A stretch of 64,000 nt of DNA from Fimbriimonadaceae bacterium. GTDB lineage: Bacteria; Armatimonadota; Fimbriimonadia; Fimbriimonadales; Fimbriimonadaceae. Below are positions 41,210-44,353 of the stretch, piece by piece. The notes beneath the pieces were generated by a model, which was not told where the DNA came from, made no database searches, and saw only the letters and a list, made by a program, of their open reading frames with translations. Numbering within the stretch: position 1 is the stretch's first letter; each line of letters begins with the position of its first letter. The position numbers were made by a program, and so were the translations under genes. The stretch spans positions 372,001 through 436,000 of the forward strand of contig JAHBTD010000002.1 of the NCBI GenBank assembly GCA_019638775.1, given 5' to 3'.

Positions 41210-42502
41210 ATGAATTTCGACCTGACGCCCGAACACGAGCTCATCCGCGAGACCGCCTATAAATTTGGCCAAAACGAAGTCCTTCCTGGCCTCACCGAGC
41301 GCGACCGCAACCACACTTCCGATCGCGAAAGCCTCACCAAGATGGGCAAAGCGGGTCTGCTGGGCGTCAGTATTCCGGTAAAGTACGGCGGGTCCGATAC
41401 CGACTACATCAGCCTCGGCATCGTTTGTGAGGAGCTTGAGCGGGCCGACACCAGCGCCCGAGTGGTCATGTCGGTCCATAGCGGCCTACACTGCCTTACG
41501 CTTCTTCAATGGGGCACCGAAGAGCAAAAGCAGCGCTGGCTGCCCAAGCTGGCGACCGGTGAACTGGTTGGGGGATTTGGCTTGACCGAGCCGAACGCAG
41601 GTTCCGACGCGGCGAACCTACAAACAACCTCCCGCCGAGACGGTGACGAGTACGTCATCAACGGTGAGAAGACCTGGATCTCCCTTTCCGACTATGCGGA
41701 CCAGTTCTTGGTGATTACCAAGCTTGTGGATTCCGGACACCCTTCCCCCTCTAGCCAAGCGCAGGGGGAAGGGGTAGGGGATGGGACGTCCACCTCGAAC
41801 CCCCACCCCCTGCCCTCTCCCCCTAGTCCAGGGGGAGGGGAGAGGAAGAGGTATGCCGCCTTCATCGTAGAGCGCACCCGCACCGGATTCTCCAGCCGCC
41901 CAATTAAGGGCAAGCTCGGCGTTCGCGCGGGCAACACCGGACAGATCTTCTTCGACAACCTTCGCGTGCCGAAGGAGAACATGATCGGGCAAGAGGGCGA
42001 CGGCTTCAAGGTCGCGATGTCGGCCCTCGATCACGGCCGTTACACGGTCGCTTCAGGCGCGGTGGGCATCATCACGGCCTGTCTGGATGCCTGCGTGAAG
42101 TATGCCAACGAACGCACGGTCGGCGGGGAAGCCATCGGCAAGAAGCAGCTCGTGCAGCAGATGATCGCCTCGATGGTGCAGGGAAGGGAGATCGGACGGC
42201 TGCTGTATTACAAGGTTGGCTGGATGAAGAACGAGGGTCTGCGGCACACCCGCGAATGCAGCATGGCGAAGTGGACCAACTGCGCGGCGGCGTTCGACGC
42301 GGCGAACAAGGCCATTGAGATTCATGGGGCATATGGGTTCTCCGACGAATTCCCGGTTGAGCGCTACTTCCGCAACTCCCGAGGCGCGATCATCTACGAA
42401 GGCACCCACGAGATTCACACGCTGATGCAAGCGGAATATGAGCTGGGCTATCGGTCGGATAAGCCATTGGCGCATGTGCTGCCCAAATGGCCGGTGAAGT
42501 AG
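41210..42502 (+). CDS. Acyl-CoA dehydrogenase with in-frame repeat insertion
   Basis: FAD-dependent beta-oxidation enzyme, 430 residues. It shows the N-terminal helical domain (LTPEHELIRETAYKF), the FAD-binding FGLTEPNAGSDAANLQT and WISLSDYADQFLV. In the C-terminal helical domain, IEIHGAYGFSDEFPVERYFRNSR and IIYEGTHEI supply the catalytic-base Glu region (YEGT). Residues about 178-212 (HPSPSS...PSPGGG) are a Pro/Gly/Ser insert encoded by a GC-rich palindromic element. It lies where homologues go straight from the FLVITK strand to the AAFIVE strand. The frame is kept, so the protein is probably made with an extra surface loop. Confidence 0.93.
   Translation: MNFDLTPEHELIRETAYKFGQNEVLPGLTERDRNHTSDRESLTKMGKAGLLGVSIPVKYGGSDTDYISLGIVCEELERADTSARVVMSVHSGLHCLTLLQWGTEEQKQRWLPKLATGELVGGFGLTEPNAGSDAANLQTTSRRDGDEYVINGEKTWISLSDYADQFLVITKLVDSGHPSPSSQAQGEGVGDGTSTSNPHPLPSPPSPGGGERKRYAAFIVERTRTGFSSRPIKGKLGVRAGNTGQIFFDNLRVPKENMIGQEGDGFKVAMSALDHGRYTVASGAVGIITACLDACVKYANERTVGGEAIGKKQLVQQMIASMVQGREIGRLLYYKVGWMKNEGLRHTRECSMAKWTNCAAAFDAANKAIEIHGAYGFSDEFPVERYFRNSRGAIIYEGTHEIHTLMQAEYELGYRSDKPLAHVLPKWPVK
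41741..41850. repeat. GC-rich palindromic element inside the acyl-CoA dehydrogenase gene
   Basis: Two hairpins (TTCCCCCT/AGGGGGAA at 41743-41770, and a CTCTCCCCCT/AGGGGGAGGGGAGAG-type stem around 41814-41846) flank GGGGTAGGGG and ACCCCCTGCCC blocks. The layout is the same as in the intergenic copies at 42511 and 43390 but with a shorter middle part. It is read in frame. Confidence 0.75.
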
Positions 42503-42510
42503 TTTTGGCA

Positions 42511-42706
42511 TTCCCCTCCCTCCATCTTGGCGGAGCCGAAATGGAGGGAGGGGTTAGGGGAGGGAGGTCCGATCCCTCCGCAGACAGAAGCCCCTGCCAC
42601 GGTCAGCCGATCAGGCTTTGCGTCTTTGCGAGAGAACAAGATCGGATTCTCTCCACCCCCTGCCCCTCCTCACCAAGTCTGCGACGTTGGCAAGGAGGGG
42701 GTCTGC
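42511..42706. repeat. Dispersed GC-rich palindromic repeat, copy 1
   Basis: Begins 9 bases after the acyl-CoA dehydrogenase stop. A long-arm hairpin (CCCCTCCCTCCAT, 42513-42525, with its complement at 42541-42553) is followed by a core shared almost base for base with copy 2 (from TTAGGGGAGGGAGGTCC through the GCAGACAG and GCGAGAGAACAAGATC blocks). A second hairpin with CCCCCTGCCCCTCC and GGAGGGGG closes it. Confidence 0.85.
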
Positions 42707-42780
42707 AACCTCAACACGCAAGCGTGCTGAGGCATGGGCGCTGAAAACGCAAACCCGCAAGTTTGCCAGGCGATAGGATA

Positions 42781-42808
42781 TTGCACTTTAACTCCAAAGT
42801 GATACAAT
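42781..42808 (+). promoter_or_regulatory. Probable promoter of the PEP-CTERM gene
   Basis: TTGCAC (42781-42786), a 16-base spacer and TACAAT (42803-42808), 29 bases before the ATG at 42838. Confidence 0.6.
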
Positions 42809-42837
42809 TTTTGGAGTTTTCGGAGGTTAGAGGGATT

Positions 42838-43368
42838 ATGCGAGCAAGACTTTTCCCATTCGTCGTCGCGATGATGCTGTCGGCAGGCGCGCAAGCCGCC
42901 TTCACCATCACACTTGACCAGCCTAACCTGGTTGCTCCTTTGCCCGGTTCGGACACTGTCTATTACTTCACCGGAACGGCAACTCGGGATGTCGGGGGTA
43001 CAGAGAGCTGGAGCTACACCATGTACAGCGCCATGCTGCCGAATGTCACCGACCCGATCGACGGCGCCTTTCTGCCGACGCCGTTCATGGATTGGATCGC
43101 CTCCGGCAGCCTGAACTATGCAGGCGACATCTTTGGCGTCACCATCAAACCCACGAACCAGATCGGGATGCACGACTTCAACCCCGACACGGACCCGAGC
43201 CCGCGTGTGCTCTATGGGTTCATGGACGAGTCGGAGAACTGGCATGAGTCGAATCCGCTTTACTTCACGGTGAACGTGACGGAGCCGGTGCCAGAGCCTG
43301 CCAGCGCGGCCGTGCTGGGTCTTGGCCTGCTTCCGTTCTTGCGCCGACGTCGGCTGAAGAAGGCGTAG
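42838..43368 (+). CDS. PEP-CTERM sorting-domain protein
   Basis: Secreted protein of 176 residues from the ATG at 42838 (AGAGGG just upstream). A signal peptide (LFPFVVAMMLSAGAQA) is followed by a beta-rich body and a C-terminal PEP-CTERM tag: VPEPASAAVLG, a hydrophobic stretch GLGLLPFL and a basic end RRRRLKK. Such tags are processed by exosortase/EpsH and link to exopolysaccharide. No exosortase is in the window. The gene is bracketed by two copies of the same repeat. Confidence 0.85.
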   Translation: MRARLFPFVVAMMLSAGAQAAFTITLDQPNLVAPLPGSDTVYYFTGTATRDVGGTESWSYTMYSAMLPNVTDPIDGAFLPTPFMDWIASGSLNYAGDIFGVTIKPTNQIGMHDFNPDTDPSPRVLYGFMDESENWHESNPLYFTVNVTEPVPEPASAAVLGLGLLPFLRRRRLKKA

Positions 43369-43389
43369 AAGAAGACAGCGAGATTCTGC

Positions 43390-43575
43390 TCCCCTAGCCT
43401 GCCCGACGAATCGGGGTTAGGGGAGGGAGGTCCGATCCCTCCGCAGACAGATCCACTGCCACAGTCAGCCGATCTGGCTTTGCGTCTTGGCGACTTTGCG
43501 AGAGAACAAGATCGGATTCTCTCCACCCCCTGCCCCCTCCTCATGAAGGCTTCGTCGTTTACGAGAAGGGGGTTC
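43390..43575. repeat. Dispersed GC-rich palindromic repeat, copy 2
   Basis: Same orientation as copy 1 with a near-identical core (TTAGGGGAGGGAGGTCCGAT onward) and diverged terminal hairpins (CCCGAC/GTCGGG-like left end, CCCCCTCCTC...GAGAAGGGGG right end). It starts 22 bases after the PEP-CTERM gene stop, so the gene sits between direct repeats. Confidence 0.85.
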
Positions 43576-43710
43576 TGTAGCGTTATGCCACCAGAATCGG
43601 GTGATTCACACAACAGGCAGTGGAGTCGTTGGTTTTAGCCTCAGGGCTGCATGTTGAGGCAGAAAAAAATGATTATGTGTGCGCACCCTGAGGCATCTAA
43701 AACTATGTTG

Positions 43711-43770
43711 TTCCCCTCCTTCCATTTTTCCGGAACTGGAGGGAGGGGATAAAGGGGTGGGAGGTCCCCA
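43711..43770. repeat. Partial copy 3 of the palindromic repeat
   Basis: CCCCTCCTTCCA and TGGAGGGAGGGG arms followed by ATAAAGGGGTGGGAGGTCC. This is the left hairpin plus the start of the core only; the rest is absent. It abuts the end of the DUF5615-type toxin gene. Confidence 0.75.
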
Positions 43771-43787: not shown

Positions 43788-44132
43788 TCAAACAGGCCCG
43801 ATCTCTACCAAGGATTCACCCTGTTTTAAAAGTTCAATGGCCTGATGCAGAGTTGCCTTGAAAATCACCTTTAGCGCTTCGTTAGAGGTGTTGCCGCAGG
43901 TGATCCAAAGGAGTTGTGGTGGCGAGCCAAGTCTAATTACCAAATCCACGAAGTCAGAATCTTTGCTGACGACTACGACGGTGTTTTCTGCAATCTTTGC
44001 CTGATTATATATCTCAATATCAGATGCGTCACGCAAGGCTAAGTCCCTGATGGCAACGCATTTACACTCAAAGTTGGCGTCGATCCAAGGGGCCAATGCA
44101 GGCGACAGATGCGCATCAAGCCAAAGAGTCAT
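43788..44132 (-). CDS. DUF5615-type PIN-like toxin candidate
   Basis: 114 residues from the ATG at 44132, which overlaps the stop of the upstream antitoxin gene by 4 bases (ATGA). It has the LWLDAHLSPALAPW start with an acidic residue and TVVVVSKDSDFVDLV with an Asp pair, as in the DUF5615/Mut7-C-like PIN group. These acidic residues would form a nuclease site. The pairing with a DUF433 gene is the standard arrangement of this predicted toxin-antitoxin system. A longer in-frame start is excluded because of the overlap logic. Confidence 0.85.
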   Translation of the reverse strand: MTLWLDAHLSPALAPWIDANFECKCVAIRDLALRDASDIEIYNQAKIAENTVVVVSKDSDFVDLVIRLGSPPQLLWITCGNTSNEALKVIFKATLHQAIELLKQGESLVEIGPV

Positions 44133-44353
44133 GCGACAAGTACCGGATGATTCATTCGGCGGGCCGCAAAAGCGATGCAAGCACGGATGTCCTCAGACTC
44201 CAAGTCAGGAAGCTCCTCAAGAACCTGCTCTTCCTTCAGGCCATTCGCCAGAAGTTCCAGCACATCTACCACACGGATGCGCATTCCACGCACACACGGG
44301 CGCCCACCGCATTGGGCAGGGTTGACGGTGATTCGCTTGAGCAAGTCTTCCAT
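44129..44353 (-). CDS. DUF433 antitoxin-type DNA-binding protein
   Basis: 74 residues. DUF433 proteins carry a short winged helix-turn-helix and act as predicted antitoxins to DUF5615. The family block is clear: ITVNPAQCGGRPCVRGMRIRVVDVLELLANGLKEEQVLEELPDL (read as ITVNP..., GGRPCVRGMRI, and an HTH), ending in the ARRM segment. It is translationally coupled to the toxin gene. The pair is probably autoregulated. Confidence 0.88.
   Translation of the reverse strand: MEDLLKRITVNPAQCGGRPCVRGMRIRVVDVLELLANGLKEEQVLEELPDLESEDIRACIAFAARRMNHPVLVA

Follow-up and report, generated by a model that had tools for sequence, protein, structure and literature searches.

The acyl-CoA dehydrogenase (ACAD) gene at positions 41210 to 42502 (+) of the window, by which we mean the whole 64,000-nucleotide stretch of Fimbriimonadaceae DNA analyzed here, carries a REP-like inverted doublet that most likely inserted in a tolerant loop and survives as in-frame selfish or neutral DNA, a reading that we place at a probability of about 0.85. 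The genome containing the window, G000, is a MAG-like assembly of 126 contigs, and its main counterpart below, G007 (CP075364.1), is a single contig from another genus in the same family. The gene encodes 430 amino acids with the N, M, and C domains of ACADs (Pfam PF02771, PF02770, and PF00441) and is the sole match within its own genome at an E value of ≤1e-40. The translated insert, about 35 to 39 codons long (41735 to 41850, +), is delimited by orthologues that lack it and by modeled disorder. Rich in Pro, Gly, and Ser, GHPSPSSQAQGEGVGDGTSTSNPHPLPSPPSPGGGERKR sits between FLVITKLVDS and YAAFIVE in the middle domain. The earlier note had proposed that this stretch interrupts an enzyme that is continuous in homologues, and the domain, PDB, and orthologue evidence agree with it: PDB homologues align on both flanks and skip the insert, and same-family orthologues mostly have 5 to 10 residues at this position (e.g., VDSDAKAPYAAFIVE). 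All but one (G007) of the orthologues read lack a 34-residue insert, relatives' ACADs and alanyl-tRNA synthetases (AlaRSs) without a retrieved locus being assessed by match coordinates only. The note's suggestion that an allele without the insert should exist in related genomes was borne out by the sister lineage, whose ACAD has 396 amino acids, a difference of 34 amino acids or 102 nucleotides (nt) net gain in G000. Among these homologues, none was found to carry the same loop in unrelated DNA; the only other long loop is that of G007, which consists of that genome's own palindrome.

The reading frame is open across the insert, without a stop codon, as had been claimed, and the insert DNA has a predicted folding energy of -73 kcal/mol. 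An AlphaFold2 model of the G000 protein, built from a 27-sequence alignment, reached a pTM of 0.86 and matched solved ACADs with TM-scores of up to 0.95 (normalized by target length). In this model, residues 176 to 210 have pLDDT values below 50 and lie between strands 165 to 172 and 214 to 221, while the fold is otherwise intact. Given the low pLDDT and the intact fold, the insert is best seen as a predicted disordered surface loop that links two beta strands in the middle domain, as the earlier note had anticipated, and the loop-bearing enzyme is predicted to be active.

At the DNA level, the insert (41740 to 41846) comprises two inverted REP-like units whose heads face inward across a short core. 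Unit scans and the genome-wide pattern place unit 1 at 41740 to 41785 (-), with head CCCATCCCCTA and hairpin CCCCTTCCCCC...GGGGGAAGGG, and unit 2 at 41802 to 41846 (+), with head CCCACCCCCTG and hairpin CTCTCCCCC TAGTCCA GGGGGAGGGGAG; the 16 nt between them (41786 to 41801) form the core. Repeat searches and folding also recovered a pair of intergenic doublets, which lie downstream of the insert at distances of 0.7 and 1.5 kb. The first, at 42510 to 42704, likewise has its heads inward, and its scores place it in another subfamily than the insert; the second, at 43387 to 43576, is 90 to 100% identical to the first in most segments. The hairpin-core-hairpin layout that the insert was said to share with these two repeats is thus present in all three, but the cores differ (16 nt versus roughly 90 nt), as do the subfamilies. 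Nor are the nearby doublets the source copies, as had been supposed of repeats within 2 kb: the insert arms align to copies elsewhere in the genome with local scores of 46 to 64, versus 18 to 40 for the doublets. A lone intergenic unit found by the same scan and pattern lies at 43711 to 43763 (-). Two other features of this neighborhood are an open reading frame between the long doublets (42763 to 43368, +) whose product bears a PEP-CTERM-like sorting signal, VPEPASAAVLGLGLLPFLRRRR, at its C terminus, and two small adjoining open reading frames at 43788 to 44353 (-) that resemble a toxin of the PIN/DUF5615 type and an antitoxin of the DUF433 type.

The units belong to a dispersed family with a recurring architecture of about 45 nt, in which a C-rich head (CCCAYCCC) is followed by a short linker and a hairpin with one pyrimidine and one purine arm. 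Pattern scans for unit copies returned at least 78 raw matches in G000, versus 1 for a reversed control, and at least 168 in G007, versus 0; overlapping matches were counted separately, and copy counts are lower bounds. The distribution is patchy, and the unit is missing from most relatives. We classified the clusters around retrieved copies (at least 52 in G000 and at least 65 in G007) using a codon model and family profiles. The search for copies inside open reading frames that the earlier note had called for found at least 16 in-frame clusters in 11 genes of G000, which encode ACAD, AlaRS, LeuRS, CarB, TrmFO, MiaB, a UbiD-type decarboxylase, GlcD, ribonucleotide reductase, a rhamnosidase-like protein, and a DUF2961 protein. 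G007 has at least 4 such clusters in 4 genes, encoding ACAD, homoserine dehydrogenase, SufD, and an Eco57I-type methylase. No frame-breaking cluster with same-strand coding flanks was seen among the clusters classified, in a test of incomplete sensitivity. Units are translated in all three phases and in both orientations. Stop-free frames averaged 4.63 of six per unit in G000, against a comparison value of 3.82, and were no more frequent in G007 units than in shuffled sequence; since the excess is modest in one genome and nil in the other, a scarcity of stop codons does not by itself explain survival. Repeats of other classes, with IQNPKSKIQN-like and QLSAISDQ/AIGDQ-like translations, adjoin palindromes in several G000 genes (L250, L252, L255, L248, L242, and L232), so that many inserts combine several classes of repeat. 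Translated repeats that look like the palindromic inserts are probably frequent among the annotated proteins of numerous bacteria.

The loop occupied in the G000 ACAD is also occupied in G007, by a different palindrome. There, two tandem 51-nt units of G007's own repeat are read in frame (ASNESPSPVHGGGVGVG twice), and over 127 nt the insert duplicates, in inverted orientation and at 85% identity, an array 0.85 kb away. This array (L211:6328-6465) consists of three tandem 17-codon units and itself lies in frame in a homoserine dehydrogenase gene, in the region encoding the C-terminal part. In the ACAD tree, whose bootstrap was not fully settled, G000 groups with G002 (94/92) and G007 with G010 (100/96), and neither G002 nor G010 has the insert. 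Forcing the G000 and G007 sequences into one clade cost 73.5 log units (p-AU of 2.35e-5 in the AU test), and the AlaRS tree likewise separates the two genomes. A single shared ancestral insertion is rejected by the ACAD tree and the AU test. Because both trees and the AU test separate the carriers, we conclude that the ACAD insertions of G000 and G007 occurred independently. AlaRS, which is single copy in G000, has two inserts there, of about 90 and 75 residues; in G006 and G022, among other relatives, the segments flanking them abut, and most relatives have neither insert. The first of these AlaRS loops holds palindrome-derived residues in G000, G013, and G004.

In our reading, a REP-like element of this GC-rich palindrome family entered the surface loop of ACAD as an inverted doublet. 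Because the added length is divisible by three and the frame in use has no stop, the gene still encodes the full enzyme, now with an extra, predicted disordered loop of Pro, Gly, and Ser. Such selfish or neutral DNA would persist only where the frame is kept and the loop is tolerant, a filter that would cause the same loops to be struck repeatedly in separate lineages. Recurrence in one loop (two hits in ACAD, three in AlaRS) might alternatively suggest that the insert is kept as a useful loop, for example for docking a partner, under positive selection on the peptide. The recurrent peptides differ, however, the G000 insert is predicted to be disordered, and units are read in all phases and both orientations, which fits tolerance and not a selected peptide; we consider such selection very unlikely and rejected it on the reading of units in every phase. 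It is scarcely credible that the stretch is an old, ordinary Pro/Gly/Ser-rich feature of the protein, with the palindrome a coincidence of codon usage. Loop length does vary naturally in this family, G010 and L096 having between a few and about 10 additional residues, yet the DNA belongs to a dispersed family, sister lineages lack the insert, and the one other long loop is built from a different, 51-nt tandem unit. Repeats can cause misassembly, and in a MAG-like assembly of many contigs an assembly chimera at a repeat, or a dying pseudogene, might be suspected. Against this, across the two genomes 15 genes keep the frame on both sides of their inserts, the single-copy AlaRS among them, the open reading frames are full length with conserved domains, and the second ACAD case lies in a one-contig chromosome, leaving an artifact or decayed gene only a very slim chance.

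As to what might move the units, we found palindromes concentrated around genes for DUF559, a Vsr-like domain of the PD-(D/E)XK nuclease type. Within the order, a pyrimidine/purine-armed hairpin lies within 300 bp of 42 of 54 DUF559 genes, and on both sides of 27 of the 54, with a density of 2.96 hairpins per kb near the genes versus 0.34 further out. Only 1 of 24 control Y1 transposase genes has such a hairpin within 300 bp (Fisher P = 4.6e-10 versus DUF559, a value that ignores relatedness), and 3 of 53 unrelated control genes have such hairpins nearby. A phylum-wide sample of 21 complete DUF559 loci, mostly from other families yet with G118 (L411) representing the family of the window itself, has hairpins at 16 loci and 3.1 versus 0.08 hairpins per kb. 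Hairpins also accompany 10 of 10 DUF559 loci on plasmids of Alphaproteobacteria, Deinococcota, and Cyanobacteriota, which were picked by hand from the hit list with an arm length of 7 and serve as an illustration, not a rate. Units bracket DUF559 genes with their heads inward: the nearest scorable units face the gene in 31 of 38 cases, with nine R/F pairs and zero F/R pairs, and this geometry is common to DUF559-flanking units and the ACAD doublet. On plasmids of three Deinococcus species (L414, L415, and L418), a DUF559 gene with close hairpins occupies different places of the hpa gene cluster, as if gene and hairpins had moved as a unit. Across genomes, palindrome counts correlate with DUF559 gene number at a rho of 0.27 and with Y1 transposases at 0.36. 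Since the genome-level correlation is weak, and no better than for Y1, the DUF559 link is one of proximity, and mobilization by DUF559 is put forward as a hypothesis.

In this hypothesis, copies may be moved in trans by DUF559, the Vsr-like nuclease with inverted heads-in units on both sides of its genes, a step to which we give roughly even odds. Mobilization by a RAYT (TnpA_REP, a Y1 transposase), as for classical REPs, is an unlikely alternative for these genomes. It is favored by the two Y1_Tnp genes in each of G000 and G007 and by the weak correlation of Y1 genes with unit counts, and disfavored by the rarity of hairpins at Y1 loci given above and by the units listed, none of which has GT[AG]G as a foot 5' to its hairpin. 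We rejected RAYT as the mover on the lack of a local link; the genome-level counts do not discriminate. At one locus (L264; G000:C4:147000-150300), about 0.6 kb separates a Y1 transposase gene from the in-frame palindrome in the ribonucleotide reductase gene, and this is the shortest distance from a Y1_Tnp gene to any unit in G000, the others being kilobases away. Somewhat more plausible, though still improbable, is that local duplication or template switching from neighboring copies, rather than transposition, brought the palindrome into the ACAD gene. The inverted copy of the homoserine dehydrogenase array in the G007 ACAD is what such a process would leave behind, but in G000 the nearest copies match poorly and better ones are dispersed. 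Of the two features that define a MITE, terminal inverted repeats and a target-site duplication, inverted arms are present, and no clear duplication was seen by eye at the insert junctions. Returning to DUF559, we regard it as about an even bet that these nucleases are dedicated partners, probably mobilizers, of very widespread, unnamed GC-rich REP-like palindromes of the CCCTCTCCC...GGGAGAGGG type, as a non-HuH counterpart of RAYT/REP, and that some bacteria, such as this one, allow these palindromes to enter core enzymes, in frame, at tolerant loops that are struck repeatedly. In the literature searched, where DUF559 papers were represented mostly by titles and abstracts, no link between DUF559 and palindromic repeats was found, and the linkage looks unreported there.

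In-frame palindromes have precedents in Rickettsia and in a few REP-rich bacteria; here, two genera were struck independently in one ACAD loop, and three in one loop of AlaRS. Acting through a filter of tolerance, this recurrence amounts to a natural experiment, run in replicate, on the sites at which proteins accept about 35 to 90 additional residues. At about 110 residues, DUF559 also offers a concrete candidate enzyme for a class of palindromes without a known mover.

The closest precedents differ from the present family in different ways. The palindromic elements of Rickettsia (RPEs) are dispersed both between genes and in frame inside conserved enzymes, and one RPE-bearing enzyme, Gmk, is active (PMC2229807). 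The G000 palindromes resemble them in behavior, being dispersed, intergenic, and in frame in conserved enzymes whose open reading frames are kept, so that the precedent invoked by the earlier note holds for in-frame behavior but not for membership: RPEs are by description a Rickettsia-specific family of 105 to 146 bp, whereas the G000 repeat is a head of the type above plus a GC-rich pyrimidine/purine hairpin of about 45 nt in all, often in doublets, in Armatimonadota, and linked to DUF559. GTAG and CGTC REPs are, in the portion of the source consulted, translated in frame as single units, dimers, and clusters, including in tRNA synthetase and repair genes; recB of two Xanthomonas species was struck at about the same site, one earlier case of recurrence, and CGTC repeats have no dedicated transposase (PMC3733652). 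The in-frame units and the recurrent site are shared with G000, whose units lack the GTAG/CGTC foot, and that portion of the source holds no DUF559 link. A classical GTAG-type REP has GT[AG]G 5' of its stem-loop, where the G000 units have a CCCACCCC-type head instead, and it flanks a tnpA_REP/RAYT gene, a setting that the Y1 loci surveyed do not reproduce. Like BIMEs and REPINs, the ACAD insert does consist of two inverted REP units, on the minus and plus strands. In REPtrons, REP units bracket the TnpA_REP gene (PMC6006769); DUF559 loci are similar in having a nuclease gene bracketed by units, and they differ in the enzyme, PD-(D/E)XK rather than HuH Y1, and in the foot. VsrA of Caulobacter, which has the same DUF559 domain as the hairpin-flanked genes, is described as a predicted mismatch-repair endonuclease in a report from which the word stem palindrom is absent (PMC12907096). 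Set beside these systems, the ACAD insert is genuine and belongs to a known kind, and what is new is recurrence at one loop together with the linkage to DUF559.
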